Source: Owenia fusiformis (lineage: Eukaryota > Annelida > Polychaeta > Sabellida > Oweniidae). Taken from it: a DNA stretch of 64,000 nucleotides. The stretch spans positions 22,890,455-22,954,454 of the forward strand of contig CAIIXF020000002.1 of NCBI GenBank assembly GCA_903813345.2, read 5' to 3'. The notes beneath the pieces were generated by a model, which was given only the letters and a program-made list of their open reading frames with translations, was not told the origin of the DNA and ran no database searches. The position numbers and the translations under genes are program-made. Position 1 is the first letter of the stretch. Every line of letters starts with the position of its first letter. Below, piece by piece: positions 3,731-48,225 of this stretch.

Positions 3731-4175
3731 TATTTTCAGTTTGTTTTCAACGTGCATGGTTTTACAGTAATTTCATATTTTCAGCTTGTTAGCAACATGC
3801 ATGGTTTTACTGTAATTTCATATTTTCAGCTTGTTAGCAACATGCATGGTTCTACTGTAATTTCATATTTTCAGCTTGTTAGCAACATGCATGGTTTTAC
3901 TGTAATTTCATATTTTCAGCTTGTTAGCAACATGGATGGTTTTACTGTAATTTCATATTTTCAGCTTGTTAGCAACATGCATGGTTTAACTGTAATTTCA
4001 TATTTTCAGCTTGTTAGCAACATGCATGGTTTTACTGTAATTTCATATTTTCAGCTTGTTAGCAACTATAATTTCATATTTTCAGCTTGTTAGCATCATG
4101 CATGGTTTTACTGTAATTTTATATTTTCAGCTTGTTAGCAACATGCATGGTTTTACTGTTATTTCATATTTTCAG
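3731..4175 (+). repeat. Tandem array of a 45-bp unit carrying a 3' splice site, ending at the exon 5 acceptor
   Basis: Each 45-bp unit contains TTTCATATTTTCAG followed by a copy of the first bases of exon 5. AG ends fall at 3739, 3784, 3829, 3874, 3919, 3964, 4009, 4054, 4085, 4130 and 4175. One unit, between 4054 and 4085, is shortened to 31 bp and shifts frame. The two copies closest to the exon are in its reading frame; acceptors at or before 4054 would lead to a stop at 4093. Confidence 0.9.
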
Positions 4176-4337
4176 GTTGTTAGCAGCACACATTACTATG
4201 TTGGAGGAGGGCTCCACCCGCTAGTTGTATTTAAATACAATTCAATGTGTTACTACACTCAATATAAAGGGAGACGTCCAAAGTTGAAGATTCTCAACTA
4301 CAGAGATCATGAGATACAGGCTGATTCTACTCAACAG
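4176..4337 (+). CDS. Exon 5, unassigned N-terminal region
   Basis: 54 codons, phase 0 at both ends, donor GTAGTT. It starts VVSSTHYYVGGGLHPLVVFK and continues with a Tyr- and Arg-rich segment. If the acceptor at 4130 or 4085 is used instead, 15 or 30 residues related to LVSNMHGFTVISYFQ are added in frame. Confidence 0.75.
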
Positions 4338-4489
4338 GTAGTTATTATGACAATTGTGTAACATATGATTTTTGAGACTGAATGTTTCAGAGATACAGGG
4401 AAATGTACACATGAATTATTTATATTAGCTATATAAAACATAGAGTTAAGTCTAATATGGCTGTGAAAAATGGACAACCATTGTACTGG

Positions 4490-4815
4490 TCAAATTTTTG
4501 TACAGGGGAGTGCCGCTGAGACTCAAAATATCCACCCACATCTAGGGATTTTTTTCTCTAAAATGGATCCACATCTTGGGTTTTCTTTCAAAAATAGACC
4601 CACTTCAAGGTAATTTTTTTCAAAATCAGTACCCAGTTCTAGGATTTTTCAAAAAGTAGACCCAGTTCTAGGGATTTTTTCATCAAAATGGGACCCATAT
4701 CTAGTTTTTTTTCTTCAAAATGGGACCCACATCTAGGGATTTTTTGGGGAAAAAGTGACCCACTTTAGTGGCACGTCCCCATATAGCCAATATATGGGAG
4801 TCCCCCCTCCGGGAT
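4490..4815. repeat. Dispersed element with internal short repeats (GGGACCCACATCTAGGG)
   Basis: A block bounded by TTGTACTGG on one side and CCAATGTACCG on the other holds five or six degenerate copies of a roughly 45-bp motif like AAAATGGGACCCACATCTAG. It appears non-coding and inserted in the intron 4338-4899. Confidence 0.5.
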
Positions 4816-4899
4816 TAAGCCAATGTACCGTAATTTCATGACATGTAAATGCATTTGTAATTTGCACGCTATAATTCTCATCCATTCTATGATTTGTAG

Positions 4900-5240
4900 A
4901 GCACAGAAGTAGGCAGTCCATTTATTTTGGTTGGTCACTCAGACAAACCTAAGCTGGATAAGAATAGTACAGAGAACAGAAATGCAAATGAAGAAAATAA
5001 ACATCCAGATGATGAAAAGAAAGACACGGATGAAGAAGAGAAAGATAAAGATGAAAAACAGAAAGACATAAATGGCGCAGAGAATACAGACTCAAATGAA
5101 GAAAATGAACAATCAGATGATGAAGAGGAAGACACGGATGAAGAAAAGGAAGACGTAAATGATATTATGAGTGATCTTGGGGTCCGATTAGATTTCCAGG
5201 AGATGATAACTGAGTTAGAGAATACATTGACTACGATCAG
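4900..5240 (+). CDS. Exon 6, acidic Glu/Asp/Lys-rich linker
   Basis: 113 codons plus two bases. It opens with STEVGSPFILVGHSDKPK, which faintly recalls the hydrophobic-VGTHxD stretch at the end of ROC domains, then runs into a highly charged, probably disordered linker built of two related blocks about 108 bp apart (around NEENKHPDDE and NEENEQSDDE). It ends with an amphipathic helix and donor GTTAGT. Confidence 0.8.
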
Positions 5241-5269
5241 GTTAGTTTTGGCAATGTTAATATCATAAT

Positions 5270-5560
5270 ATCATATCAAACCGCATATCATATCATACCA
5301 TACAGACTAAATCATATATTATGATATAATATGTGTTTTCTGTTCAATTGTTGATTGTAATCATGAGATAAACCCAATATCAGATCATTTTTAATGATGT
5401 CATTTTATTGTCTTGTAAGATATCAACTCACTTGTGTCGATATTTGATATCAACTTGTTGATAAAAATATCATTCAAAATGATCTGAGAATCTATGTGTA
5501 TCATATCATACCATATATCATATCTTATAATATCAAAGCTGATCAAAAGCTAGGGAGTCT
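5270..5560. repeat. AT-rich inverted-repeat element (ATCATATCATA, ATCAGATCATTT)
   Basis: ATCATATCATACC-like ends face each other around a core in which AATATCAGATCATTTTT reappears inverted as AAAATGATCTGAGA. The same ATATCAGATGATTTGATC palindromic core recurs at about 11590-11690, so this is a dispersed family. Confidence 0.5.
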
Positions 5561-5872
5561 TCTGAGTTGTTTATTATTGCCATAGTGATATGAGGTATCG
5601 AATGAGTCGAAGACTCAGAATGAGAAGAGCATGAAGAATCTGAAAGAGATTAAAGAAAGAATTAAACTCTCAATGTCTGCTAGGATGGTTTTGTATGGAT
5701 CAAGAGTGAGAACATGTCAAAAAATCCAGACAACACTGTCAAGCAAAAGACTGGTGGTCTTTTCTCCCATTTGATATACACAAGCTATCAAAAAGACCCT
5801 TGGTGTGAATGAAGCAAATTAAGTTACATGGAAAGATAGGGTTAAATTATCCTATAGATGACGCTACAGTTA

Positions 5873-6066
5873 CAGGCCCGTAGCCAGTATTTGCCAAGGG
5901 GGGTTCACTTTTTGGAAAATTCCAGGGGGGTTCACTTTTGACAATTTTGTTCCAAAAATGGCCAAAATCACTCAAAACGTGCTCAGAATGGTGAAAAACT
6001 GCATGATTTTGAAAGAATTTTTGGCCAGGGGGAACCCATCGAACCCCCCCCCTGGCTACGGGCCTG
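5873..6066. mobile_element. MITE with 15-bp perfect termini CAGGCCCGTAGCCAG
   Basis: The left end CAGGCCCGTAGCCAG is matched exactly by CTGGCTACGGGCCTG at 6052-6066. The 194-bp interior contains G-run blocks followed by GTTCACTTTT. Related copies are at 29493-29624, about 51748-51898, and in fragments near 53614-54060 and 54947. Confidence 0.8.
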
Positions 6067-6404
6067 AGCTATACCAGTCTGTCTAATCTGAGCACCAGTG
6101 GAACCAGCCAAATATTTTTGATTTAACAGTTGTTCACATTATAAGGTTTCCAGTTCATGAGTCAACAGAAATTAATAAAATAGTGACCCAAAAAGTGGTA
6201 ACATTGAGAGCTGCCCAGATTAGATCATCGTGGTAATCCAAGCCCTCTCCATCTCTATCCTTCTGATGCAACAGAGAGAGATGCTATGAGTATCAGAATG
6301 ATATTAGATCATTTGTTCAGATACAGTATACAGGTTTTACTGAAAATGCGGGTTGGTGTCATTGCACACCTGATTGACACCTATATTTTATTATTTGATT
6401 GTAG

Positions 6405-6540
6405 AGGGAAGACTTCGGTGACATTTAAAGAGCAACGTTACTTTACACAGACATATGAAGCCATGCAAAGACTGATCCAGCTCCAGGATAATCTTAAATC
6501 TAGGATTACCACACATATTGTGCATCAACATGATGAAAAG
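6405..6540 (+). CDS. Exon 7, helical linker
   Basis: The first base completes an Arg codon from exon 6. Encodes GKTSVTFKEQRYFTQTYEAM and a Gln/Leu-rich helix, ending in phase 0 with donor GTAAAC. The GKTS here is not preceded by the rest of a P-loop. Confidence 0.75.
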
Positions 6541-7030
6541 GTAAACATGCTTTTTGCTTTCATAACAAAAAAGGTCTTATGGTTATGAATGGAACAAATC
6601 ATGATTTTTATCTGATGGATCCGTTAGACATTTAAAACATTTTTAACAACCTGCATGAAGTTCTATCTAGAGCTGTTTTGTGCGAGAAATATAATTTTAT
6701 ACCCCCACCCCATGTTTTTAGGGGATGAACTTTATAAAAAAAAATGATAATGAAATAATTATCGTTAATTACAGTGTTAGTGTTGTATGAGTACATTTAT
6801 ATATTTTTTAGCTTTTATATTTTTAATGACTTACATTTGGTTATCATCAGCAGTTGGTAATTGGTATTGACATTCAATTTCTGTAACAAATTGATACATA
6901 CACTTTAGTGACACACAACTATTTACACAATTTCCTTTTTAATATTGGGTATGAATATTACTTAATACCCAACATGGCTAAGGTTATTTATGCTACTTGT
7001 TTCTACTGATAATATAAAATTGTGTTTGCC

Positions 7031-7475
7031 TGTGGGAGTCGTTCACATTCAAATTCAAACTAAATAATTAAATTAAACATAGAAAAAGCTTAACAGCCCT
7101 TGAATTAGCTGGTCGTAATGCATATTATGCTAATCAGCTGTCTAATTAGCTTGAATTACTGATTAATTTGGCTAAGGGCTAATTAGCTGCTACACCATCA
7201 AAGATCTAATTATGATCCAAACCTAAGGCGCAAATTGTGCTTACCTGACTTGTAGGTGCTAAGGATGGGGTTGGTGGGATGGCCTCAAAAAACCAGAAAA
7301 CAGCCTACTTCCTGAAGATTCTGTTAGATAATGGAGATGCAAAAACTCAGTGGTGTTGAGTTGGGTTGTCATAAAGAGAGGCTCAACATCCGGGTTCTTA
7401 TTCCAACTTTGTGCAAATTCCCCATACTTACCCCAGAATAGTTCAACACCTAATAACAAGAGACCGACTCCCACA
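7031..7475. mobile_element. Possible short inverted-repeat element, 11-bp termini
   Basis: TGTGGGAGTCG at 7031-7041 is the reverse complement of CGACTCCCACA at 7465-7475. The interior is AT-rich with repeated CTAATTAGCT motifs. The rest of the intron 6541-7712 shows nothing I can name. Confidence 0.45.
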
Positions 7476-7712
7476 AGTCATAAATGCAATTATTTGCAAT
7501 AATTGTTATAAAATATCATGAATAAAAATTAACTCTGATTAGAAAGCACATTCACACGTTTGAAAATATCAGAATCACCTAAATGAACCCCAATAAACAA
7601 TAACCACCCCCCAAACAACATTAATAAAAATCTCAAAATATCATGGTGTAATATAGATTCTCCTTTAACTATTTCAACAGAGTAAGCCACATTCAGTTTT
7701 CCTATATTCCAG

Positions 7713-7922
7713 GACTATAAAGCTCTTTCAAAACTTGTGCGTAGGTTAGAAAAGAGTCACTTGGAGGATATACAGTACCTTTACCAATTCACCCCTGATG
7801 TTGCATCACAAATTACAGATATACTCAACTTGGAAAGGAAAGTTGTCAGTTTTGATGAGGTGGCGGCAAAATTCAAGAGCAAACAACTTTGTATGGTGTG
7901 CCTCAAACACATGGAGCAGTGG
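7713..7922 (+). CDS. Exon 8, start of first COR-like region
   Basis: 70 codons, phase 0 at both ends, acceptor TATTCCAG, donor GTATGT. Starts DYKALSKLVRRLEKSHLEDI; the end (KQLCMVCLKHMEQW) leads into exon 9 as the winged-helix-like part of a COR domain does. The COR assignment rests on pattern and order, and no search was run. Confidence 0.75.
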
Positions 7923-8510
7923 GTATGTCTTGATATTTCTGTCATGAAAGTCTATCGGGATGTTATTAATGTGATGTAAACAGTTAAATGGACATACAAC
8001 TTCATCATAGATCTCCAGATCAGACGTCTGAATGTTTCAAAACTGACAAGCTGCTGTACAGATGGATAGATAGGGTGACCCAAAAAATGCAACCCTCCAT
8101 TTCTCCTATATTTTTCTTAAATGGAGGTAAATTGCTCTGAGATTTGGCACTCAAGGACTTCATTCAATGCGGGATCCTCTGGCAAAGTTTTAATAATCAT
8201 AGTCTTATATTGATAGAGTTATGGTTGTTTCAAAATATGCTCCAGATGCTGTAGATGGCAGGACTTATCAAATGTATGCATTTAGATTAATTCAATTCAA
8301 CCCCATGGAAACAACAAGATGATCTCCTTGAGATGCATATTTAAATAAAAAATCTCTAACAATCTCATTAAAAACAAGTCTTCGGGGGATTTGAGCAAAT
8401 TCTCTATTAGAATATGAATATTCCACGAATCACAATATACCAAGCATGTGACTGAATTTGGACCAGACTTTGGTTTTCAGAAATCATCTTGTTTTTATTT
8501 TGCATTGTAG

Positions 8511-8717
8511 GGCTGTATACAAATTTTGGACTTCATTCCACAGCAATTAATCGTATTAGATATTGGTTGGTTCATGAGAACATTAGACTTGATAAGAAGT
8601 GAATGTAACAAGAGCATCCCATTGGACAAAGTCCTAGCAGTTGAGGAAGGGACCAAAGTAGTAGATATGGAAGGAGTGAAAACCATTCTGAGCAAACAGA
8701 CCTCCAGTGAAGTAGAG
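8511..8717 (+). CDS. Exon 9, first COR-like region
   Basis: 69 codons, phase 0 at both ends. GCIQILDFIPQQLIVLDIGW follows the COR pattern of hydrophobic strand, then I/V-x-x-P-x-x-L..D..W. Compare exon 41 of the second module (LQYFDNEFLKDHIVINPQW). Confidence 0.75.
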
Positions 8718-8950
8718 GTATATTGTAAAATTCTTGCAATTTCTTCTAAGAACTAATCCTTTCAACACAGCTCTATCCCTCCTACATGTATACCTTTTAC
8801 CACTAGATCACTCATTCCACCCATCCTATTTACTTGTACATCAGGCCACCTATTACTACTTTACCCATCAACTTAATGAAAGTGATCATGGGATCTCCCA
8901 TGATTATTCTTTTACCAGATGCTTTAAATCCCAATTTACTTATTCTGTTG

Positions 8951-9142
8951 AAAACCCAGGCACCCAAACAGATTGTCGTTTTCACAAAGAGAAAACCCAA
9001 ATTCCACTATACCAAAAAAAAATTTTTTCAATTTTTTTTCACTATTAAAAAGAGTTTTCCTTGGTACACAGAGAATGGGGATGGGATTGATCTTCTTTTT
9101 GGTCAATTCTACTATCTGTTCCGGTGCCTGTGTTTTTAACAG
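8951..9142. mobile_element. MITE with imperfect inverted ends of about 45 bp
   Basis: AAACCCAGGCACCCAAACAG near the left end and its imperfect reverse complement near 9110-9142 (CTGTTCCGGTGCCTGTG) bracket a core with a long A/T run. The overlapping ORFs here on both strands are by-products of the repeat. Confidence 0.6.
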
Positions 9143-9231
9143 TGTTGAAGTTAATGTTAAACACATGAGACATTAAGAATTGGTTTACTGCTTTTTACTC
9201 AACAGTTATTATCTGTTCTGTTTTTAAACAG

Positions 9232-9366
9232 ATTGAGCTTCTTCTAAAGGCTGTATGGCAATTACCTGGTATGACACGTGTATCAAGTGTCCGAGAGAGT
9301 GTCATGGATGAGACACACTGTATTGTGTCATCAGAGAATCTTGCTGACAAACCTCCCTGTCCATTG
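9232..9366 (+). CDS. Exon 10, first COR-like region
   Basis: 45 codons, phase 0 at both ends, donor GTAAGA. Encodes IELLLKAVWQLPGMTRVSSV followed by a polar stretch ending KPPCPL. It lies between two COR-like exons. Confidence 0.75.
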
Positions 9367-9639
9367 GTAAGATATAAGAATTGGGGTCATTCAAAATTAG
9401 AGATTTGATAGATTTTTCCTGTGAATATTGTGGATTATTCTGACATAATGCTCAGATTTTGCCACAAAGAATATTGCTTACATTAAATCCTCTACAAGAG
9501 AATTTAGACTTAATGTATAACAAATTATTGCAATTCACTTTCAAGGTTTAAAAGATGAAAAAGAATTTTAAACTAAATGGAGTTAGTCTCATCCAAAATG
9601 GTAGACAAAATGTGATCAATATTGATAGAATAAATATTC

Positions 9640-10020
9640 CATAATACTATTGTTTTCCCTGGGAAATAAAATCATATTATCCCTCTTAAAATCATATATA
9701 CTCGAAAAATCATATTGTCCCTGGAAAAAAAATCATATCGAAAAATCATATTGTCCCTGGAAAAAAATCATATATACGTGAAAAATCATATTGTCCCTAT
9801 TTTTTCAAAAAATGTCATTTTTTCAAAAAATCAGTTTTTCCAATTTTTCATTTTTTTTCAAAAAAATTGATTTTTCCAATTTTCAAAAAAGTTAATATTT
9901 TTTCTGAAATTTTCATTTTTTCAAAAAATTGCAATTTTTCAAAGATTTTCATTTTTCAAAAATTTTCATTTTTTTCAAAAGTTTTAATTTTTTCAATTTT
10001 TTATGTTTTTCCTTGAATTC
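9640..10020. repeat. Low-complexity T-rich tract with AATCATATTGTCCC repeats
   Basis: Three or four copies of AAAAATCATATTGTCCCTGG are followed by about 250 bases of degenerate TTTTCAATTTTTCAAAAA sequence. It appears non-coding, in the intron 9367-10635. Confidence 0.7.
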
Positions 10021-10046
10021 TCAAACATTAAATTATGGAATAAAAA

Positions 10047-10206
10047 GGTTATTTCATGCTTGATTTTCAATATGAATTTTATTCCACGGGAAATATGACA
10101 TTGACCTCAGTAAATATTATATTGACACTCACTCGCTACGCTCATTCGGTCAATATCATATTACCCTGGAATAAAATTCATATTGAAAATCAAGCATGAA
10201 ATAACC
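10047..10206. repeat. Perfect 40-bp inverted repeat with 80-bp spacer
   Basis: Bases 10047-10086 are the exact reverse complement of 10167-10206. The spacer contains CACTCACTCGCTACGCTCAT. The arms show no mismatch, which suggests a recent or homogenised hairpin element. The reading CGCTACGCTCATTCGG in the loop is typical of dispersed hairpin elements. Confidence 0.85.
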
Positions 10207-10635
10207 TATATTTATTATAATATAATTTAATCAGTTATATAATCAAATTAAAATCTGGATTCTAATTGCATCACCATTGAAGATGATAAATTTTAAATTG
10301 TATGAACTAAAAAAAAATTACTCAAGCGAAGAAGCTAAACCAGTTAGAGAATGAAGCTTTCTGAATGTGAAATACAATGTATAATCTCCAATGAGTTAGC
10401 TTCATCAATACAATACAGTGAATATCAAGTTTAAGTTAGTCTCATCATCCATTTGTGTTAGCCTCGCATTAACTGGAGACATTTTCTTCAACTTTTTCAG
10501 ATTTTTAATTTTAAGATTATGAAATTGCTGTTTTTTCGACCACAAAGTGAATTTTGTTTTGGTTGTGAATTTGTAAGATTACTTTAATACTGTTAGTTGG
10601 TTTGAAATTATGAAACATTTTGAATATTATTTCAG

Positions 10636-10840
10636 ACGATGTACTGCCCAGAAGCATCAGATGGGCTTTTGAAGAGAAATATGACACTGGCATTCCCATT
10701 TATTACCCAGAAGGCTTTGCACAGTATTGTCGCAAAATGGCTATTAAAAATAGGCAACATTGAAATGATATGGTCTGGTGGAATTGTGTTATGTCATGAA
10801 GCTGTTGAGATTGTGGTGACATCTACAGAGAGAAAACAAG
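10636..10840 (+). CDS. Exon 11, C-terminal part of first COR-like region
   Basis: Acceptor ATTTCAG, donor GTATGA. TMYCPEASDGLLKRNMTLAF is followed by a PFITQKALHSIVAKW..IEMIWSGGIVL pattern that is typical of the second half of COR (Leu..P.G....+..R.. then W..G.vL). Ends in phase 1, completed by exon 12 more than 11 kb away. Confidence 0.78.
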
Positions 10841-11059
10841 GTATGATCCTTAGACTTATTTGTATTACATCTAGGTATGATTTTGCATTTCCAATGCTTG
10901 ATCATCTCGCATCGGTTTTCACTGCATTCATCGTGACCTAAGGAAGCCAAGTGAACAAAGATGATGCTTGATATTAATCGAGTTAAATTTTTTTTTTTGA
11001 TGTCACTTATCAACCAACTTAAGAATTAGATATTAAAATTCCCGTCATGCCGAATGTAC

Positions 11060-11430
11060 AAGTACAGAAAAACCTGTCTTATCCAAATATTTGGGACCTA
11101 CCAAAAGTGTTCCAATTAGATGTTCACATTTTAAGGTTTTTCTAATATGGTAGTCAATGGAAGATTGAAAATTGGGATAGAGAAAGTGCTCACATTTAGA
11201 GGTATTTGGATAAGAGCGGTGTTCAGATATACAAGTTTCACTGTGGGTAATTATTCAGATGGTCTCAAGTTGATCATATTACAGTGAAACCTGTATATCC
11301 AACACCTCTCAAAATGAACACTTTTTTCCTATCCCAATTATGTTATCTCTCATTGACTCAGATATTTCAGAAACCTTGAAATGCAAACACCTATTAATCC
11401 GAAAACTTTTGACAAGTCACAATCGTTACT
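11060..11430. repeat. Two facing copies of the CAGTGAAACCTGT element
   Basis: Copy one runs from about 11067 to 11245 and copy two from about 11278 to 11425. They have AAACCTGT near the ends and the internal words GTGTTC and GGGATAG, reversed relative to each other. Other members are listed at 23765, 29632, 37597, 38700, 44388 and 47452. Confidence 0.55.
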
Positions 11431-11689
11431 GTACTATAATTTATTCAATACTAATGATATAAAGATGTCATCAGCAAATGCCATGTGACTTAACAGAAAG
11501 TGAAAATAAAGTGCAATTATTTAATTTTACATGTATTATCATGATTGAATCAATCTGAATATGTACATGTAGATGTTAAACTGAAAATACAGAATATCAG
11601 ATGATTTGATCAGTGATATCATTTTTATCGATGAGTTGATGTCTACGAGGCAATAAAATGATATCAGTAGAAGTGATCTGATATTCTGT

Positions 11690-12390
11690 TTATCCCATGA
11701 TTGTAATCAAAGATTAAAAATAAATTAAAAAATTCAAATTTGTTTATCAGCCGCATATGAAGCTGATAAATGATTTTCTGGAAAATATCACACTGATCTC
11801 CAGAAATATCAGCAGGTGTTATTGTACAGAAAACACAATAATCATGGGATAAATAGAGATTATCCTATATGAGGTTCAGGATATTGGGATTATCCCGAGG
11901 CCAATATAATATATCTGCCCGAGGGCCGTAGGTCCCAAGGGTAGATATATTATATTGGCCAAGGGATAATCCCAATATCCTGAACCGACTATAGGATGAT
12001 CTGTTTATCCCATACCAATCACATTGTTCAATTGGCCAAAGTTCAGAAACTTTGCAACCAACCGTGGAATTATTTTAAAATATTCATGTCCAGTTTTGTA
12101 TTCTTGTCCGTAGCCGGATTTTCCTGTTCAAATCATGGATTATTAACGAGGCATACTGCTCCTTTCCTTCTTTAAAGCATCAAACAGATCGCGATTGTCT
12201 GCGTTTTTCTCCATTGTCGTTTACAGTATGCGAACGTTACAAAAAAGAACCAATACGGAAACAGCGATTATGACGTAGCGGGCAGATATATCTGCCCGCT
12301 CGGAGCGGGACGTAAAGTTATATCTGCCCGCTGATGAAAATATAAGTTTTTACAAACCGGCTTTATGTACCCGTAACACATCCAAGTATG
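11690..12390. mobile_element. Hairpin element with TTTATCCCAT termini
   Basis: TTTATCCCATGATT at the left and ATGGGATAAA at the right end bracket nested imperfect palindromes. The block GATTATCCC..GGCCAATATAATATATCTGCC reappears inverted at 11944-12010, and GCGGGCAGATATATCTGCCCGC at 12278-12299 is a 22-bp palindrome. No coding potential is seen. Confidence 0.55.
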
Positions 12391-12734
12391 GGATAAAAAA
12401 GGTTATGTTCTGGGGGTTTTAGGATATGGGGTTTATCCAGAGGGAGATATACATATGCAATATGCATATCTCCCGAGGGATACATAACTTCTATATACTT
12501 ATAGAGTTTTTTTTAACAATTTTTTCTCAACTTTTTTTCAAAAATATTTTCAATTTTTTTTCAAGCTAATTGTTTTTCAAAATTTCTTTTTCAATTTTTT
12601 TCTCGAAGTGGGATGATATGCCCGGGAGTGAGAGATATGGCTGGAGTTATGGGGATTCCAGATATGGAAACCTCCAAATCAGGATACAAGATATATCTTA
12701 CCAACTTATCTCCCTAAAACTGTACTCAGGCATA

Positions 12735-13020
12735 GGATAAATGAAGATATTAAATTGAACATGCAGATAATAAAGTAAATGTATAGATGTAAAAGTGAAC
12801 ATGTAGATATAAACTCAACTTGTAGATATTAAGCTGAACATGTAGATAGAAACTTATCTTGTTCATATATACTAATCTGAACATGTTGATATTAAATTGA
12901 ACATGTTGACATAAAGCGAAGATGAAGTTACAAAACTGAACATATTAGATATTATACTTAACATGTTCATATAAAGCTGAACATATAGATATAAAACTAA
13001 GCATGCTGATATTTAAGCAA
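12735..13020. repeat. Tandem repeat, about 20-bp unit GAACATGTAGATATAAA
   Basis: About a dozen degenerate copies of CTGAACATGTAGATATAAA in a row. It is an intronic minisatellite. Confidence 0.8.
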
Positions 13021-13855
13021 CAAGAAGGGATAGGGACAAAAAATGTCACAATTTTACAAAAATATTCTTTCCTTATCATATGCCATGCCTGTTTTCTAAA
13101 ATGTCCATAAATTCTGACTTTTTAATGGGATAATCCTCTGTATTTTGAGGTTATCTGGCAAAGAAATTGAAAAAGGGGAAAATGATTCTCAATCAAAATT
13201 ATGCCACTGTTTAAGTTAAATGAATTTGGACTTTTATTCAGTAACTTAAATATTTGGTCTGCAATATCTTAACTTTTTCAGAAAATGAAATCAGGATGGC
13301 AAGGAAACATTGGCTTTGTTTTTTGAAAGATTTCTTCTAGCATTTTATTCCCCCTATCCCTTCTAATTCCTTTAAACTAAACCTATGCAATATTACACTG
13401 AATATGGCAATATTCAATCTCATAAGTATAGGTCTCGAATAACAATGAACATTTATATATAATATTTTACTAAAAATTATGAGATATACAGAGTGTGCCA
13501 AAGAAATTTGCAACTTTTTTAAAAGGTTAGAAAAGTATCATCACAGTAAGGTACTGGCATAAAAATTTATTTACAGAAACTCAAGGAGAGGCATATTTCA
13601 CCATTCAAATACTTAGTTTATACTGATTGCAATTGTTTTCATCAGATCTTTGAACATGAATGGTAAATTTTTCTTTTGTCAGAGATTTAGTTTTTCTAGA
13701 AAATGTGACTTTCTATGATTTTATGTGATCAACAATAACACATTCTTTATGTTCACTAAATCTGCTATAATCGTTGATGACTGTTTAACCAATGTCTAGT
13801 CCAGGATTATATCAGTATCTGTTATACGCTGTACTGTATATATTAATTATTCATT

Positions 13856-37772: not shown

Positions 37773-37782
37773 TTGATTGTAG

Positions 37783-38699: not shown

Positions 38700-38905
38700 G
38701 TGCAGTGTCATATTTATCTATGTAAACCCCATTATAAGTGGATTGAAACACCCTCGGTTCTGCTCAAAAGTGTTTCAATTAGAATGTGTTTCAATTACAG
38801 AGGTTTAATTTACATTAAGTCAATGTGTCACAGGACTGTGAAAAGTGTTCCACTTACAAAGGTGTTCTTATAGAAGTGTTCCACATGACAGGTTTTCTTG
38901 TATGT
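38700..38905. repeat. CAGTAAAACCTGT-type element, GTTCCACTT-rich
   Basis: ATTATAAGTGGATTGAAACA and the facing GTGTTCCACATGACAGGTTT bracket repeated GTGTTTCAATTA words, ending just before exon 40's acceptor. Confidence 0.5.
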
Positions 38906-38932
38906 ATTTATATGCACGTACTATATTTGCAG

Positions 38933-39014
38933 AAAAAGGAAAACAGAGAGTGTTATAAGCTGGGACCAAATCAAGCAATATGCTATAGATGTGGGCATCT
39001 TTGATGACAATGAT
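38933..39014 (+). CDS. Exon 40, COR domain
   Basis: Completes Ser; KRKTESVISWDQIKQYAIDV, GIFDDND; phase 0, donor GTAAGT. Matches the L..F..hA...GI stretch at the start of the COR winged helix. Confidence 0.85.
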
Positions 39015-39481
39015 GTAAGTGGCCCAATAGAGTTTGAGATATTCAGTTTTCTACCTCATACAGTTGCTTAGCTTATTGCATATTTTTTAAGCAATGTCTG
39101 AATCCAGTTTAGTGACCACTGTTTTAGATTAAAGGTACAATTCTCTAAGAAATTGATTTTGAAGGTTAAGTATTTGATAAACTTTTGAAAAATGGTAAAT
39201 GGATATCCCAGTTATCTTTTTCAATTAATATAGTAATAAAATCAAGATTGCAAGGGTAACAATACTTTTGTCAATTTTTTGGAGAGATGGTTAAAATATT
39301 CAACACTATATTTTGTCAATCCAATATTTTAAATGTGACTATATTTTATTATGGCTTTTTCCATCATCATCTTTTAAGTTCCTACCATGATCAAAGTTAA
39401 GATACTTGTCCTCTATAAATTAAAACAAAAAATTTACCAAATACTAATATTAAATGTGTTTCAATAATCAATTTATTCCAG

Positions 39482-39628
39482 ATCAAACAGGCTGTACAGT
39501 TCTTGAATGATCTTGGAACTTTACAGTATTTTGACAATGAGTTTCTTAAAGACCACATAGTAATTAATCCACAATGGATTGTTGATGTCATGGCTAGTGT
39601 AGTCTCAGTTAAAGATTCTCCTATACAG
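39482..39628 (+). CDS. Exon 41, COR domain
   Basis: 49 codons, phase 0 at both ends. IKQAVQFLNDLGTLQYFDNE then LKDHIVINPQWIVDVMASVV: the classic COR signature L..LG.hhYF......hhh.P.Wh.d.. Confidence 0.92.
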
Positions 39629-39654
39629 GTAAGAATAGCTTTCCAATGGTAGAA

Positions 39655-39790
39655 TGTATATAAAGACCACATAATAATCAATATACAATGGATCATTGAT
39701 ATCACGGCTAGCTAAATCTCATTGAAAGATTCTCCTCATATATGGATAAGAATAGCTTTCTGATGGTAGAATGTACATAAAGATCACATA
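39655..39790 (+). repeat. Decayed tandem copies of exon 41's 3' half plus donor
   Basis: AAAGACCACATAATAATCAA through AAGAATAGCTTTCTGATGG repeats exon 41's second half and the start of its intron, with a stop-bearing change; a third short copy starts near 39777. Confidence 0.8.
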
Positions 39791-39889
39791 GTGATTGACG
39801 AGAAAAAATACAGTACATGTAGTTTTCATGATTTTCAAGTAAAAAAAACAATAACATTCTAATTAGGTTGTTTTTATCCCTATGTATAG

Positions 39890-40054
39890 GATGGTCGACT
39901 GCAGCATTCTGAGATTGGAAAAGTGTGGAAGAAATATCCAGCCAAGCTACATGATTGGTTGCTTAGACTGACAGAAGAGTTTGACTTGACGTTTCCCCTC
40001 CCTGACATTCCTGTTAATCTTGTACCCTGCCTCCTTCCAGACAAAGAACCAGAG
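39890..40054 (+). CDS. Exon 42, COR domain
   Basis: 55 codons, phase 0 at both ends: DGRLQHSEIGKVWKKYPAKL, then LTEEFDLTFPLPD and VNLVPCLLPDKEPE. H/L.P.hLh.hh..FdL.h and lVPclLp are COR hallmarks. Confidence 0.92.
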
Positions 40055-40478
40055 GTGAGATTTTAATGATAGAACCCATAGCAAGAGTATGACTTTGTCT
40101 ACACTCTTTGAAATTGATATGATTCTGAATTCTTGCCTATATCCAATCAGAATAGAGTATAGTCAGACAGACATTACATGTACATTTTCTCCAGGCAAGG
40201 TTTAATACTCATTTCACGTTTACAGTTTATTTACATTATTTTACATTTCAAATGGGGACTTAGGGCATGGAGTGGACACTGTTTTTGGCCAACATTTGGG
40301 ATATCACACGAATATTTTTTGATGTATGTAAATTATTGGTTTTCATATGTATATGGATAAAGGAAACACATAGACCTTATATCATGTTGATCCAGGATTA
40401 TAAGGTTAACTGTATTAAAGGAATACTCCTTTCTACTATTTACACCTTGCTAAGTTATTTATATTGTATAAATTGCAG

Positions 40479-40577
40479 GATGTTTGGCCAGCCATCAGTA
40501 CACAGGAAGGGGTCCGTGAAACTAAGGCTGTCTACAGCTTTGTGTACCTTCCAGTAGGGCTGTTTAACAGGGCACAG
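40479..40577 (+). CDS. Exon 43, COR domain
   Basis: 33 codons, phase 0 at both ends: DVWPAISTQEGVRETKAVYS, then FVYLPVGLFNRAQ (COR F.+lP.Glf.R). Confidence 0.9.
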
Positions 40578-40759
40578 GTAAGAAGGTCAAGGGTCATGGT
40601 CAAGGATCATGTGACTGTATTTAGCCCACTTGATTCACTAAATCTGGTCACATGACCCTAGGTTTACATTTAAGATTTTGTGGTGCAAATATAAATATAA
40701 TGACACACGGTTAAAAGTATTGCAAATACACAACATGATAGTTTTTAGAGAAAAAAAAA

Positions 40760-41095
40760 ATCGGAACGGTTCAGTTCGGAACATTTTGCTTCGGAACGGA
40801 ACAATTTCGGAACGGTTCGGAACAGAATGACTGCGTGTATAAGATTAAAATAAGTTGATCATCTAGGTCTATTTGGTAGCGAAAAGCTCTTCAAAATTCT
40901 TCAATGAGAAGGAGTGAATAGAATGAACCTCTTTTGGTGCAAAATATTGAAAGAAAAATGCTGTTTTGTGGCGATTTAAGGGCCAAAAGTTGTGAAAGGG
41001 TAAAATGTTCTTGTTCCGGAACCGAACCGAAATTCTTAATTTGTGTTCCGTGTTCCGTTCCGAGGGCATAATTCCGCGGATCGGAACAAAATCGG
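40760..41095. repeat. Hairpin-like element rich in CGGAACGG
   Basis: CGGAACGGTTC words at 40760-40825 reappear inverted as GAACCG/TTCCGTTCCG at 41015-41090. The overlapping minus-strand ORFs here are by-products. Confidence 0.5.
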
Positions 41096-41396
41096 GTATC
41101 CGTGACACCTCTAATAGTTTTCACAATATCCAGAAAACTCATGATGTATTTAACTCTATTTAACTCTCTTAACTTACATCCTATTAATTTGATTCAAAAT
41201 GCAACTCAATGGGAGGAACACCTTCAGAAGTGGAACACTATTTTATCAGTGTTCAAGAACACTATTTTATCAGTGTTCAAGAATTCAGAAATCCTTTCTG
41301 AGGTAGCATAGCATTGAAGCAAACATGTGTTTCTTATATCATGGATCTACTGTCATACTGTATAGATCCATAACATATTAGACTTTTATGTTCCAG

Positions 41397-41491
41397 GTGC
41401 GACTCTTCCAGTTCTCGGACAGTAAAGCAATATGGAAACAAGGATCCCTTCTCAAGAAGAATGACCATCTAGCCTTGATTCAACAACAGAG
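41397..41491 (+). CDS. Exon 44, COR domain
   Basis: VRLFQFSDSKAIWKQGSLLK, then KNDHLALIQQQ; phase 2, donor GTGAGT. The W+.G..L strand pair is the late COR pattern. Confidence 0.88.
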
Positions 41492-41805
41492 GTGAGTCAG
41501 TAGTACATATAGCCATTGTGGTGTCTGCAAAAAGAATGTGAAATAGTCAAAGTGTAAAGCCTTGATTCAACAACAGAGGTAAGTCAGTAGTACATATAGC
41601 CATTGTGGTGTCTGCAAAAAGAATGTGAAATAGTCAAAGTGTAAAGCCTTGATTCAACAACAGAGGTAAGTCAGTAGTACATATAGCCATTGTGGTGTCT
41701 GCAAAAAGAATGTGAAATAGTCAAAGTGTAAAGCCTTGATTCAACAACAGAGGTAAGTCAGTAGTACATATAGCCATTGTGGTGTCTGCAAAAAAAAATG
41801 AAATA
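41472..41805 (+). repeat. 87-bp tandem array of exon 44's 3' end and donor, four copies
   Basis: GCCTTGATTCAACAACAGAG starts at 41472 (in the exon), 41559, 41646 and 41733. Donors follow at 41492 (GTGAGT), 41579, 41666 and 41753 (all GTAAGT). The copies are almost identical, so the duplication is young. Confidence 0.92.
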
Positions 41806-42055
41806 GTCCCAGTGTATAAAGCTCACATGCTTCGAATCCACTGTGGTCACCAAATGCATGTCATCTCAATGTCACATATCATGATATATCAGGCAATATT
41901 CAGGAGTCATGCTTATGAAATTAGACAACCAGTGAATATTAAAAGAATATTGGTCTGTTTTTAAAAAAAGTCAGGTTTGGCCAAATTATCAGCAGCTAAG
42001 AACCAATCAAATTTAAGTATTTAGACAAGGTGCATGATATTTTGCATTGTTCCAG

Positions 42056-42206
42056 TGAGCAAAACTTGATAGTGAAAGTTCAGGGCCAGAGACCAGAAAA
42101 TATCCTACTGCTGATTCATGAAGTTTTTGAGACTCTAATACAAGAGGCCTACAGGGGTGTGCATTACGACTTCTTATTGCCATGTCCTGATTGTCTGAAT
42201 AAAGCA
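42056..42206 (+). CDS. Exon 45, COR end and Cys pair
   Basis: Completes Ser: EQNLIVKVQGQRPENILLLI, a helix, then DFLLPCPDCLNKA; phase 0, donor GTGAGT. CPDC begins a Cys-containing segment like that of exon 13. Confidence 0.88.
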
Positions 42207-42560
42207 GTGAGTATTATCTGATTTGAACATCTTTTTTACCACAATGCAACAATATTTGGGGAAATACTATGCAGTACAATAGCAAACATTAAAACTCAAC
42301 ACATCTTAAATCAAACATCATTTAAGGTTGTCCATTAATTCTAAAAAACTAAAGTATGTCATATTTTAGTCAAGTAATTTGGACAAGGAGTTTGGTTTTG
42401 GAAATTGTAAAAAGAATTCTCAAAGTTAATTTCTGAAACTATTTGTACAAATTAAAGAATATCATAGTTTACAAAGGTCATTCCAACTTCTGTTATTAAG
42501 CTACAATAATGAATTTCATGAAGAAATAGATCCATTTTATGCCATATTCTTTTATTCTAG

Positions 42561-42678
42561 GGTACTTTAGACCCATGTTTGTTCCAATGTACGCTTATAC
42601 GACATGCAGTAGACATGAAGGCCCCTTACCTACAGTGCAATAAATACTTCCATGCTGTTCCTATGGCAGAAATGCAAG
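42561..42678 (+). CDS. Exon 46, Cys-containing segment after COR
   Basis: GTLDPCLFQCTLIRHAVDMK, then YLQCNKYFHAVPMAEM; phase 1, donor GTAACG. Cysteines in CLFQC and LQC with a nearby His could complete a zinc site with exon 45. Confidence 0.85.
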
Positions 42679-43018
42679 GTAACGATTACTAGCTTTTAAA
42701 ATATGTATCAGCTAACTTTAATGTAGGTGTTCCATTTACTGACAGTCGTAAGTGGATCGCACAACAGGAGCTTTTTGAGGTGACCAACTTTCAGAAGTTA
42801 ATTTAACATGATTAGTAGATTGGTCCTGATATTTTGAAAATTAACACTTATGGAGATGATCAACTTTCAAAAGTTCATTTTTCTCAAATTAATTGATTTT
42901 GAAAATATTCTACTTATGAAGGTATTCCATTTTACTTGTATAAAGCAAGCGCTCTTGAGTGGTACAAAATAATTTTACACTAATCACGAGTACTACAATA
43001 CAATGTTGTGTATTGCAG

Positions 43019-43217
43019 CAATGCTACCCCCAGACCCCACCACTGACCTTGACCTACATCTCCAGAAAAGTTTCGATGCTCTAGAAGAACTCCATAGTAC
43101 CCTTACAACAGATATCTTTGTAAGTTTCTGTGTAAAGGACACTCCTAGGATGTCAGAGACAGACGTAGTGGACCACATGCAAGTTGTACAGGATCTCTCA
43201 GAAGATGATTATACATT
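43019..43217 (+). CDS. Exon 47, start of degenerate TIR domain (TIR-1)
   Basis: Two bases complete Ala; MLPPDPTTDLDLHLQKSFDA, then DIFVSFCVKD (TIR box 1 pattern) to LSEDDYTLW. GTAAGT at 43120 lies inside the exon and is not used in this model, since the frame continues as TIR sequence up to donor GTGAGT at 43218. Confidence 0.82.
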
Positions 43218-43805
43218 GTGAGTTTCCTTTTTATGTCATCACATAGACAAGGTGACATGAGTTTCCTTTTTATGTCATCACATAGACAAGGTGACTTGAG
43301 TTTCCTTTTTATGTCATCACATAGACAAGGTAACATGAGTTTCCTTTTTATGTCATCACATAGACAAGGTGACATGAGTATCCTTTTTATGTCATAACAT
43401 AGACAAGGTGACATGAGTTTCCTTTTTATGTTATCACGTAGACAAGGTGACATGAGTTTCCTTTTTATGTTATCACGTAGACAAGGTGACATGAGTTTCC
43501 TTTTTATGTTATCACGTAGACAAGGTGACATGAGTTTCCTTTTTATGTCATCACATAGACAAGGTAACATGAGTTTCCTTTTTATGTCATCACATAGACA
43601 AGGTGACATGAGTATCCTTTTTATGTCATAACATAGACAAGGTGACATGAGTTTCCTTTTTATGTTATCACGTAGACAAGGTGACATGAGTTTCCTTTTT
43701 ATGTTATCACGTAGACAAGGTGACATGAGTTTCCTTTTTATGTTATCACGTAGACAAGGTGACATGAGTTTCCTTTTTATGTTATCACGTAGACATGGTG
43801 ACATT
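43218..43805 (+). repeat. 39-bp minisatellite starting at exon 47's donor, about 15 copies
   Basis: The unit GTTTCCTTTTTATGTCATCA with GACAAGGTGACATGA repeats every 39 bases and begins with the donor itself (TTGTGAGTTTCC). In later copies GTGAGT has become ATGAGT. The long ORFs read here on both strands are the repeat. Confidence 0.92.
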
Positions 43806-44246
43806 GTAACAGCCAGAGTTCAAAAAGGTACACTGTTGTCATCAGATTGGTGAGCAGAGGATTGGTAGCTGCAAATGAATTTTCTTATATGCTCATTTAC
43901 AAACAAGGTATGATATAGTTAATCCTGTACCTTGATGTGACTAGCATTTAGCATAGGCAATCTGTGGTTGACATTTGTAACAATTGTCACACATTTGTAA
44001 CCATTTTGTAACTTGCCAGATGGTAACATTTTGTCATATATATGCCTTGTTTTTACACTTTTGTAGTTAACAAACACCGTTATAAATATATTGATAGTGT
44101 AGGTCTAAGGAAGTCAAAACCCAGGTATGAGATAGTAGTAAATACAATATTACTCTATATTTATTAACAATAAACAGTAATTTGTAATAACTAGCCAGAA
44201 GATCAGAATCAAAGTGAGGGATAATACTCAACACATATATTTGCAG

Positions 44247-44313
44247 GTGGTATGATGAGGACAATACAGAGACTAACTTCAGCAAAGTAGCCCTAGCTCT
44301 GCAAGATTCAAAG
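44247..44313 (+). CDS. Exon 48, TIR-1
   Basis: Completes Leu; WYDEDNTETNFSKVALALQD SK. LWYDE matches the TIR box 2 region (hhhD). Phase 0, donor GTCTGT (weak). Confidence 0.78.
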
Positions 44314-44387
44314 GTCTGTTGTACTACTATCATATTACTCAGTCTAACACAAAGCCGAGGGAATAGATTAAATTGAGTTCATGTACA

Positions 44388-45500
44388 GTAGAACCTGTGT
44401 AAGTGGAACGCCTTCCGTTCTGCCAAAAAGCGTTCCACTTAGGAGGTGTTCCACTTACGGAGGTTTTGGAATCGCGGGGAAATAAATAACATACAAGATC
44501 AAATATAGGGTTGATATGTTTTATTGGAAATCTGATTCTCCGTTCATTGCAGGGCAGCTATATACCATTAATTATCCATTTGTTTTACTCAAAAAGGTAT
44601 CTGACATTCTTAATCCTCCTCATTCTTCCAAAAGGTTTTCTGACATTCTTAATCCTCCTCATTCTGCCAAAATGTTTTCTGAGATTCTTAATCCTCCTCA
44701 GTCTGCCAGTCTTGGGCAAAAAGATTTGTCAATTAAGTTTTAAAGACTTGTTCCTACTGCTAATAATTCAATTGTTTTTAACTGACATTCTTAATCTAAC
44801 TTATCAAGTTTGAAAAAAACAGCAAGGGGTATTAATTAGTGATAGCATCACATGTCCATCTCTACAGGAGGTTAATCTAATTTGCTGAATGATAATCTTA
44901 TAAATCCTAATTTGCTAATTATCAAATTAATTAGTGGTAGCATCACATGTTTATCTCTACAGGAGGTTAATCCTATTTGCTGAATGGTAATCCATTAAAA
45001 AACCTTATTTGGCAATTATCAGTTATTACCTGTTTTCATACCCAGATATCACTGTAGGAGGTTAATTCTGTTTACATACAGTATCAATATTGAAATTTAT
45101 GGAAAATGACTGTTCCACTTAGCAGGTTAATTTTTCAATATGGAGTGTTCACCGTTCAAGTTTGGAGGTGTTCCACTTACAGAGGTTCAATTAACATTAA
45201 GTCAATGGGTTTTTAAAACGGGACTTTGAAAAAGCGTTCCACTTGTGAGGTGTTCCACTTACGGAGATGTTCCACTTAGCAGGTTGTACATGTTTTTCTG
45301 GTGCTGGTCATAAGACTGCATATTTCATTTGGACTTATTGTATAAATAAATACACGGAGACGAGTTTGAAGTAATGGAATCAATCTTTAGGCAGCAAAAG
45401 AGAAAGAATTTAAAGTTAAATATGTGTAAGTGGAACACCCCTGGGACCTCAAAAAAGTGTTCCACTTAGGAGGTGTTCCACTTACAGAGTTTCATCGACA
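44388..45500. repeat. Composite of GTTCCACTT elements and short tandem repeats
   Basis: ACAGTAGAACCTGTGTAAGT at 44388 and AGCGTTCCACTT words at 44430, 45230 and 45470 mark inverted elements. Between them lie three copies of TCTGACATTCTTAATCCTCC (about 44600-44720) and a duplicated GTGATAGCATCACATG block (about 44840 and 44935). No exon was found in the intron 44314-45602. Confidence 0.6.
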
Positions 45501-45602
45501 TAAAGTCAGTGGATTACTGGATGTTACTGATTTAACTGTACCTAATAATACACCCATGATATTGCTTGGGTTTGTTCAACTTAAGTGTACCTGTTTTTGT
45601 AG

Positions 45603-45767
45603 ATGATGCTTATTTTTATGTCTTCTGACTATGAAAAAGATGAGAAATGCTTCAAGACATTTCACTATGGGACACAGACTTTGCAGAAACCATTTATCTT
45701 GGTGGTGGTAGGGCAAAGTATGGAATGGCAGAAAACACATCTTGGCATGCTCATTGGACCACAGGAG
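45603..45767 (+). CDS. Exon 49, TIR-1, catalytic glutamate replaced
   Basis: 55 codons, phase 0 at both ends. MMLIFMSSDYEKDEKCFKTF HYG aligns with exon 52 ACISKEYANSKNCMRELHFA: the Glu of CMREL, which is the catalytic position in TIR NAD hydrolases, is Thr here. Followed by FILVVVGQSMEW and IGPQE. Confidence 0.85.
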
Positions 45768-46147
45768 GTAAGTCGCTACCATGATTCAATTTGCTTATAT
45801 AGTATATGTAAGTCTACAAATAGAATAAGGCTTTATATTGATGAAAGTTCTCGAATTGAAAATATTGAGCCCAAACACCCTAATATCGTTCAAATTATTC
45901 AAAGGAAAATATATATATAGCCTGAAAATTCATAATGTAGCAGATTTCTTTTATTTTGCTGTACATAATAGCTGGAATCAATGATTCATCATATGATTTA
46001 CTCATCCTAGATTATAGTGAAATTAGTGAATACCATGAAATTCTTAATTCTTTCAAAGGAACAGTTCCTCTATCTTTCAAGTTGATGATGTTCTTTGAAA
46101 AAGTGTTGAATACCTTTTTATTTGAAATTTTTATAGAGTGTCATTAA

Positions 46148-46560
46148 GTATCCAATTATTGTATGTTCCACTTGAACTCATTGAGTATCCAATAATTGTA
46201 TGTTCCACTTGAACTCATTGCTGAGTATCCAATAATTGTATGTTCCACTTGAACTCATTGCTGAGTAAATAATTATTGTATGTTCCACTTGAACTCATTG
46301 AGTATCCAATTATTGTATGTTCCACTTGAACTCATTGAGTATCCAATAATTGTATGTTCCACTTGAACTCATTGCTTAGTATCCAATAATTGTATGTTCC
46401 ACTTGAACTCATTGCTGAGTAAATAATTATTGTATGTTCCACTTGAACTCATTGAGTATCCAATAATTGTATGTTCCACTTGAACTCATTGCTGAGTATC
46501 CAATAATTGTATGTTCCACTTGAACTCATTGCTGAGTATCCAATTATTGTTCCACTAGAA
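46148..46560. repeat. Minisatellite GTATGTTCCACTTGAACTCA, 40-43 bp period
   Basis: About nine copies of GAGTATCCAATAATTGTATG / TTCCACTTGAACTCATTGCT with small length differences fill the intron before exon 50. Confidence 0.9.
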
Positions 46561-46639
46561 CTTGAACCTTTCAAAAAGTGGTTATGTCCAGCCATTAGTA
46601 AAAAATATTGTGACTTACAACTTTTTTCCGACTTTACAG

Positions 46640-46732
46640 GTGTTTGTGAATATGAGGCAGAAAGAGCGCTACCCACATAAGATTGAGGAATTAAAAACAA
46701 TGGTCGCTGACAAACTTGGTTCCATTGACAAG
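46640..46732 (+). CDS. Exon 50, end of TIR-1
   Basis: 31 codons, phase 0 at both ends: VFVNMRQKERYPHKIEELKT MVADKLGSIDK, a helix linking the two TIR units. Donor GTATGC. Confidence 0.8.
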
Positions 46733-46799
46733 GTATGCCTTGTCTATAAATCATCCAGTGCCTTAAGAGAACATATTGGCCGTATTAAACTTTTAGAGG

Positions 46800-47195
46800 T
46801 GTTTCTTTTATACAATACAATTATTATACAATGTGCAATACAATACAATTACAATATAATGTACAATACAATTACCACACAGTATACAATGCAATTGCAA
46901 TAACAATACGATGTACAATACAATACAATCACTATACAATGTACACTACAAATCCTATCAGTATACAACACACAATACAACTAATATACATTTTACAATA
47001 CAATTACTATACAGTATACAATGTACAATACAATTACTATACAGTATACAATGCAGTTGCAATAACTATATGATGTACAATACAATACAACCACTATACA
47101 ATGTACACTACAAATCCTATCAGTATACAACATACAATACAACTAATTTACTATTTACAATATAATTACTATACAATTTACAATGTACATAAATA
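46800..47195. repeat. TACAATACAATTACTATAC tandem repeat
   Basis: Short AATACAATTACTATACA words with a duplicated block of about 180 bp (around 46905 and 47085). Intronic. Confidence 0.8.
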
Positions 47196-47233
47196 TTATG
47201 GGATAAACATGTAATGGTTTGAATATATCCTAG

Positions 47234-47416
47234 GAGGAGAATGACAATGATGGCCAGTTGGTGTTCATAAGCTATTGTTGGTCAAACTCCCATGATGCAA
47301 TACGACGTGGAAGCAAGAAAATCCAGGGGGCGCTAGGAGCATTTGACCCCCGTGAGATCAAGAATAAGCTGGAGGAGAACGGGATCAAATGTTGGATTGA
47401 CATAGAGAATATTAAG
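47234..47416 (+). CDS. Exon 51, canonical TIR domain (TIR-2), boxes 1-2
   Basis: 61 codons, phase 0 at both ends. EENDNDGQLVFISYCWSNSH DA: VFISYCWSN is TIR box 1, DPREIKNKLEENGIKCWIDI the helix A to strand B (BB) stretch. Acceptor ATCCTAG, donor GTGATT. Confidence 0.92.
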
Positions 47417-47451
47417 GTGATTTAATTTAACTTATGTTGCCTTATGAACCT

Positions 47452-47632
47452 TTACAGTAAAACTTGACTTGTCACTGGCTGGGACTGGTCAAAATTGTTC
47501 AGATTGGCAAGTGTTTACATTTCGAGGTTCTTTAACATGAAAATTTGCGGGACATTTCATATAAAAATATGACTGACATTCGAAGGTGTTCGGACTAAAA
47601 TGTATATGGATACACAGGCTCCACTCTATTAG
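47452..47632. repeat. CAGTAAAACCTGT-type element
   Basis: TACAGTAAAACTTGACTTGT and GGATACACAGGCTCCACT with internal GTGTTCGGACTAA; a diverged family member. Confidence 0.5.
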
Positions 47633-47807
47633 CTATTTTAAAATAAAATTATAAAGAACTATTATTAACTATGTATAACTACATGAGACAGTTCAATGTT
47701 ATCAAATTTTGAAGAATCCTTTTTGAAGAATATTCCAAATTGCCATGTTGAAGCTGTAAATAAAATGTAAGAAGAATACCTTAGACAGTCTTGATTCCAA
47801 ATTTCAG

Positions 47808-47990
47808 AAAGGATTATTTGAAGATATAATCGGTGGAATAAAGAAAGCAGATGTGGTGCTAGCGTGTATATCTAAGGAGTATGCTAACTCAAAGAACTGC
47901 ATGAGGGAACTTCACTTTGCTGCCAACACCATGAACAAGCCAGTTGTGTTTGCTGTGGTGGGCACTGGGGATGAATGGGAACGTTCTGAG
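47808..47990 (+). CDS. Exon 52, TIR-2 with putative catalytic Glu
   Basis: 61 codons, phase 0 at both ends. KGLFEDIIGGIKKADVVLAC then ISKEYANSKNCMRELHFA: S..Y..S.NC..E is the core of catalytic TIRs, where the Glu corresponds to the NADase residue of SARM1-type and bacterial TIRs. FAVVGTGDEWERSE closes the fold. Activity is inferred from family. Confidence 0.92.
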
Positions 47991-48225
47991 GTGAGACATT
48001 AACAATCTGTAGTATTCTAGACAAACATATAAATCTAATGCATTCTAAGCCAATTGTGTTTGCTGTGGTGGGCACTGGAGATGAATGGGAACGTTCTGAG
48101 GTGAGACATTAACAATCTGTAGTATTCTAGACAAACATATAAATCTAATGCATTCTAAGCCAGTTGTGTTTGCTGTGGTGGGCACTGGAGATGAATGGGA
48201 ACGTTCTGAGGTGAGACATTAACAA
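47940..48225 (+). repeat. 110-bp tandem array of exon 52's 3' end and donor, three copies
   Basis: CCAGTTGTGTTTGCTGTGG starts at 47940 (exonic), 48050 and 48160 with a period of exactly 110. Donors GTGAGA follow at 47991, 48101 and 48211. The copies are nearly identical; 110 is not a multiple of three and the intervening DNA has stops. Confidence 0.92.

Follow-up and report, generated by a model that had tools for sequence, protein, structure and literature searches.

Minisatellites across exon-intron borders in a Roc-COR-TIR gene and in dynein and myosin genes of the annelid Owenia fusiformis

Minisatellite-like repeats that span an exon-intron border are known from amphioxus, where they are called mirages and occur, for example, in the globins BflGb6 and BflGb9, in PGBD5 and in troponin C (PMC3087553, PMC3902484). 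In the portions of these papers available to us, reverse transcription PCR and Adh3 data suggest that splicing is undisturbed, and copy number is described as unstable between haplotypes and in the soma. In the potato RdRp gene, according to the accessible part of the report, a duplication across an intron-exon border created a new intron (PMC4974935). Here we analysed a stretch of 64,000 nucleotides from the annelid Owenia fusiformis (contig CAIIXF020000002.1, positions 22,890,455 to 22,954,454, forward strand), hereafter the window, whose + strand carries a giant multi-exon gene with leucine-rich repeats (LRRs) and Roc, COR and TIR domains. At several junctions of this gene the splice site lies inside a tandem array, and arrays also span junctions of dynein and myosin genes in the same genome. 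We consider it probable (about 0.8) that these arrays are minisatellites of the mirage kind, each born when a segment lying by chance across an exon-intron border was duplicated in tandem on the spot.

As in the amphioxus mirages, the repeat unit spans the border (arrays A, B, C, D, F and H of the window and those of the control genes described below, but not array E), both 5' and 3' borders are affected (13 donors and 7 acceptors among 59 arrays), AG/GT recurs in many copies in the window and in the controls, the units measure tens to ~160 bp, and the authentic junction is the one attached to the exon. Unlike the amphioxus cases, the arrays were present here in all three gene families examined (Roc-COR-TIR, dynein and myosin), with donors ahead of acceptors. 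The G+C content differs as well, being 0.33-0.38 in the 20 control pieces and 41.3% in B. belcheri, as given in the available part of a source that also reports 19 chromosomes for B. floridae (PMC12373286). The potato case shares the tandem duplicate across an intron-exon border, but there the duplicate made a new intron, whereas the introns examined here also occur in array-free paralogues, so that the present arrays lengthen introns already in place. Ordinary intronic minisatellites are likewise local, highly identical among copies and variable in period; the units described here additionally include exon bases and the splice site. Intronic minisatellites are mentioned for an earthworm metallothionein gene, junction-spanning ones not being described in the part of that account at hand. 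Mirages as a genome-wide feature outside cephalochordates were not found in the literature searched, which covered few subscription papers. The kind of array is therefore already known from amphioxus; the O. fusiformis case widens its known range and adds a testable donor bias.

Anatomy of the arrays in the window

The arrays were detected by Tandem Repeats Finder (TRF), and their copies were laid out against the gene model (Table 1). A first-pass annotation of the window had listed six junction arrays, all with the splice site and flanking exon bases in the repeat unit, and had given periods of 45, 54, irregular, 87, 39 and 110 bp. All of these periods agreed with the TRF calls and the copy layout. 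Five of the six arrays (A, B, C, D and F) contain both the splice site and exon bases, whereas array E only adjoins its donor: it starts one base into the intron and contributes the intron side of GTGAGT, at a boundary that matches two paralogues. We found one additional array, the seventh, at a further donor (array H).

The final acceptor of array B completes the P-loop of the Roc domain, GKT/SILRALMSK (the slash marks the border), which makes the copy next to the exon the most likely ancestral junction. In array C, the exon ends in a diverged copy of the unit, which together with the donor aligns with the units that follow, and the TRF call begins only at position 26401. Array A includes one truncated copy of 31 bp, which changes the frame within the array. 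When the units of arrays D (87 bp) and F (110 bp) were searched against the genome (498 Mb, 525 contigs), the sole match of each was its own array, in a search that can miss weak matches.

The Roc-COR-TIR part of the gene has four paralogues elsewhere in the genome. We examined 19 homologous places in them, of which 4 lacked a boundary in the models and 15 had one (4 for array B, 2 for H, 4 for D, 2 for E and 3 for F). None of these 15 junctions carried an array within 30 bp, showing that these five arrays are not conserved. The paralogue on chromosome 12 (L002) contains two arrays of its own, at junctions other than those of the window gene.

Junction arrays in dynein and myosin genes

As controls we used 20 pieces of 10 kb each (200 kb) of the same genome, picked before their sequence was seen. 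By hand counts they comprise 15 of 18 dynein heavy-chain places and 5 of ~19 myosin-head places, only part of the myosin candidates having been scored. An automatic filter removed exons that lay wholly inside an array or were shorter than 24 bp, which reduced the control exons from 313 to 290 and those of the paralogues from 96 to 90; wholly exonic arrays were excluded. Among the control arrays with a period of at least 15 bp, 12 of 62 span a predicted junction, in dynein as well as in myosin genes (Table 1). Junction arrays are thus a trait of the genome, and the view that they belong to the window gene or to immunity in particular was not supported.

At four control junctions (L020, L029, L031 and the 30-bp array of L026), joining the exons at the exon-proximal copy gives a protein that aligns to solved structures with no gap at the junction. 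The spliced L026 protein aligns to cytoplasmic dynein 1, that of L029 to myosin VIIa and that of L031 to myosin Vc. The L020 protein aligns to a 4730-residue chain labelled CFAP57, its next-best match being axonemal dynein heavy chain 5. The remaining control exons were judged dynein-like by reading only. In the homologue of the L020 junction, in L021, an 89-bp array of 14 copies (reverse complement, 7617-8869) begins 17 bp downstream of the dynein donor, whereas the 41-bp array of L020 spans the donor. The gene finder predicted spurious exons within junction arrays, which calls for caution among annotators.

Table 1 Junction arrays of the window and of the control genes, and the host gene (a slash marks the splice border)
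Feature	Positions	Strand	Description
Array A	3723..4185	+	45-bp unit with acceptor TTTTCAG; final copy joins exon 4176-4337
Array B	35949..36187	+	54-bp unit with acceptor TTTTCTAG; final copy joins exon 36170-36341
Array C	26323..~26636 (end approximate)	+	irregular copies of ~42-66 bp; end of exon 26222-26360 and donor AAG/GTAAGG
Array D	41471..41816	+	87-bp unit (21 exon and 66 intron bases) x 4.0; donor AGAG/GTRAGT; exon 41397-41491
Array E	43219..43804	+	39-bp unit x 15; adjoins donor of exon 43019-43217; no exon bases
Array F	47937..48228	+	110-bp unit (54 exon and 56 intron bases) x 2.7; donor GAG/GTGAGA; TIR exon 47808-47990
Array H	39547..39790	+	114-bp duplicate x 2.1; end of exon 39482-39628 and donor CAG/GTAAGA; second copy decayed
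L022			control, donor; 58 bp x 8
L020			control, donor; 41 bp x 12
L026			control, donors; 59 bp x 7 and 30 bp x 7
L031			control, donor; 41 bp x 4
L029			control, donor; 34 bp x 4
L015			control, donor; 140 bp x 2
L019			control, acceptor; spanning array
Giant LRR-Roc-COR-TIR gene	997..49176	+	Pfam matches and purpose-written gene model; 5' part may hold more than one gene

Origin of the arrays and competing explanations

In the explanation that we favour, a duplication across a border would retain one intact junction attached to the whole exon, in the first copy at a donor and in the last copy at an acceptor. The surplus copies would land in the intron, be removed by splicing, and then drift, expand and contract as intronic minisatellites do. 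Splicing probably uses the exon-proximal copy, and the copy number of the arrays is probably unstable. The variation within the arrays was counted in 11 of the spanning arrays (9 donor and 2 acceptor). In the surplus copies of the nine donor arrays, 50 of 1338 exon-derived and 31 of 679 intron-derived cells (row sums) differ from the majority of the array; over all 11 arrays, the counts are 68 of 1730 cells on the exon side and 32 of 796 on the intron side, the classes of the two acceptor arrays being rough. The exon-derived and intron-derived parts therefore vary alike, as expected when coding constraint is absent.

An alternative is that minisatellites originate uniformly along the genes and overlap junctions as often as short introns and many exons lead one to expect. 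This concerns where arrays arise and is compatible with the duplication mechanism, so that the weight given to it and the estimate of 0.8 are not exclusive. In the null model each array was represented by a seed with the period of that array, placed with equal chance anywhere in the region, purely exonic places excluded; because a border-spanning duplication should be as harmless as an intronic one, its surplus copy falling in the intron, uniform seeding is a fair null. In the window, 28 arrays have a period of at least 15 bp and 5 of them span a junction, where 3.07 would be expected (P 0.17; array C is uncounted, its exon copy lying outside the TRF call), and the paralogues gave a similar picture (4 of 16 against 2.48, P 0.22). 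A first version of the test, with 30 arrays in the window, expected 2.0-3.5, with P 0.04-0.25 for five spanning arrays and 0.01-0.11 for six (with C), by the period chosen. Arrays with a match of at least 90% and a period of at least 25 bp stood out (4 of 8 against 0.95, P 0.008), but the window was selected for the feature and cannot decide on an excess. The same holds for the rate per junction, by hand counts ~6 of 110 in the window gene, which was chosen for the feature, and 9 of 580 in the controls (Fisher P 0.02). The controls, chosen blind to their sequence, argue against uniform origin: 12 of 62 arrays compare with 6.87 expected (P 0.03) and, at periods of at least 25 bp, 11 of 32 with 5.48 (P 0.008), or with 5.99 after G+C matching (P 0.018). 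Their donors gave 9 of 32 against 2.95 (P 0.001; 8 without a weak call, P 0.005), while the acceptors, with 2 of 32 against 2.97 in the controls and 7 of 59 against 5.97 in all regions, conform to uniform seeding. Over all regions, 13 of 28 arrays with a match of at least 90% and a period of at least 25 bp span a junction, against 4.68 expected (P 0.0002) or 5.72 after G+C matching (P 0.0007). The split into donors and acceptors was post hoc, and the 90% cut was likewise not preset; five spanning calls were graded weak by our own reading (L018, L025 6019, L028, p1a_cor and p1b), and counts were made with and without them. Placement by chance alone is accordingly doubtful. The exact donor word CAGGTAAGT formed 209 genome-wide pairs with starts ~30-60 bp apart and 125 at 330-360 bp; the reversed word gave 97 and 63. 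The matches listed come mainly from a few large arrays, so that these counts are not independent, and we draw nothing from them.

The first-pass annotation had also suggested selection for redundant splice sites through which the gene could diversify its product, a reading considered here for a gene of immune type. In its favour, the exon's frame runs on without a stop through every copy of array B and through three of array A, and the open reading frame 26154-26402 continues through one further donor of array C; in-frame variants at A, B and C are possible on this reading of the frames. Yet use of an upstream acceptor at B would add 18 residues per copy between the Thr and Ser of the Roc P-loop and thereby split it. 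Reading past the authentic donor runs into a stop after 1 codon in array D, 3 in F and 7 in H, so that splicing at a later copy would give a truncated protein, and a stop precedes the next donor copy in 10 of the 13 scored donor arrays. Given these frames, the arrays of dynein and myosin genes and the 15 array-free paralogue junctions, we rejected product diversity as the reason for the copies and regard it as very unlikely. Another proposal, the Rogers model, put forward for the amphioxus globin mirages and the potato RdRp gene, would have the arrays mark introns being born by tandem duplication. A possible exception in its favour is the TIR intron of L002 (reverse complement, 1676-2642), which is absent from the window gene and the three other paralogues and is made up mostly of a 73-bp array of 4 copies at the donor and a 110-bp array of 4.2 copies (100% match) at the acceptor. 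At the 15 paralogue boundaries, however, the introns of junctions B, D, E, F and H occur without arrays. Among dynein introns covered by at least four paralogues, those with a spanning array were unshared in 1 of 5 cases and those without one in 38 of 104, numbers that are small. Recent gain of the array-bearing introns was thus not borne out, and as a general link we rejected intron birth, which we consider improbable. Insertion of dispersed mobile elements or satellites at the junctions deserves hardly any credence: the units hold the gene's own coding bases, those of D and F, the two tested, match their own locus only, in a search that can miss weak matches, and we found no support for such an origin. 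It was rejected for these two units.

Several observations weigh against local duplication followed by drift as a complete account. Pooled over all regions at periods of at least 25 bp, 20 of 59 arrays span a junction, against 10.95 expected (P 0.002), and uniform seeding, which accounts for much of the overlap, is therefore not the full explanation. G+C matching raises the expectation to 12.0 (P 0.006), and base composition, considered as the source of the excess, explains little of it. The remark that chance would rarely place arrays in this way overstates the case for the window alone, where any excess is weak; over the pooled regions the recurrent duplication of junctions, itself upheld, is commoner than the uniform seeding model predicts. 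The excess lies mainly at donors (pooled, 13 of 59 against 5.95, P 0.003); it is approximately threefold over uniform seeding at the control donors, is left without explanation by straddling duplications, and may reflect a mutational hot spot. Copies at donors would perhaps be better tolerated, because transcription reaches the correct site first there and a wrong one first at acceptors; tolerance alone, however, would not raise donors above expectation and is insufficient. The splice dinucleotides of the surplus copies, which would also suit selection for redundant sites, are changed in 1 of 102 cells in the 11 arrays, compared with ~4% at other positions (Poisson P 0.09), and in none of the 80 cells of the nine donor arrays, which hints at constraint but does not prove it. 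Periods are divisible by three in 4 of the 5 TRF-scored spanning arrays of the window and in 10 of 20 over all regions, the overall share being not clearly above one third. At the 30-bp array of L026, finally, the gene model read through several copies before the donor, and the alignment alone favours the first copy.

Host gene, neighbouring features and wider significance

The window gene was modelled with a purpose-written exon-chain predictor, using codon usage and general splice weight matrices. It returned 71 exons, the outermost positions being 181 and 49977; 55 were retained, and 16 were removed by hand before counting as doubtful, as lying within arrays or as opposite an antisense gene. 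By Pfam, the encoded domains are MSP, LRR, an EF-hand-like stretch (under the curated cut-off), Roc, COR-A, COR-B and TIR. The MSP (major sperm protein) domain (27505-27962, +) lies upstream, and the 3' half encodes the others. One spliced piece scored 81 bits for Roc, 109 for COR-A and 92 for COR-B, and the next scored 71 for TIR_2. Judged by exon order, which is identical in the four paralogues and supports the boundaries of the Roc-COR-TIR part, the LRR, Roc, COR-A, COR-B and TIR exons probably form one series and a single transcript, encoding a ROCO protein with TIR. Its 5' part has no such paralogue: two upstream stretches searched genome-wide gave outside matches that were short and fell on a repeat-like piece near 6219, and this part may be a separate gene. 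The predicted piece at 6219-6300 (+), LDHRGNPSPLHLYP..., matches many places in the genome and resembles a dispersed repeat, which makes the exon start predicted there doubtful.

Two further features were noted. An unbroken reading frame of 910 codons (17872-20601, -), antisense to the gene model and situated in its middle, contains four tandem TPR units (a 108-bp repeat) and a DUF294-like nucleotidyltransferase stretch. In the paralogue L008 (reverse complement, 2315-5684), the intron upstream of the Roc exon is largely filled by a 102-bp minisatellite of ~32 copies, which stops ~170 bp short of the acceptor.

In the literature found, junction-spanning minisatellites are described for a few amphioxus genes. 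With all three families examined in one genome carrying them, their rate can be measured: the 200 kb of control genes contain 32 arrays with a period of at least 25 bp, of which 9 span a donor and 2 an acceptor. The origin of minisatellites and the part that splice sites play in it thereby become testable with existing assemblies. A tentative possibility, which we rate below even odds, is that minisatellites of the O. fusiformis genome preferentially arise or persist at donor splice sites, and not at acceptors, at about three times uniform seeding. If so, a process at the 5' splice site, such as co-transcriptional breakage, R-loops or weak selection for extra donors, would create or retain arrays, and, extrapolating from the control genes, thousands of donor arrays would exist genome-wide, outside the cephalochordates.

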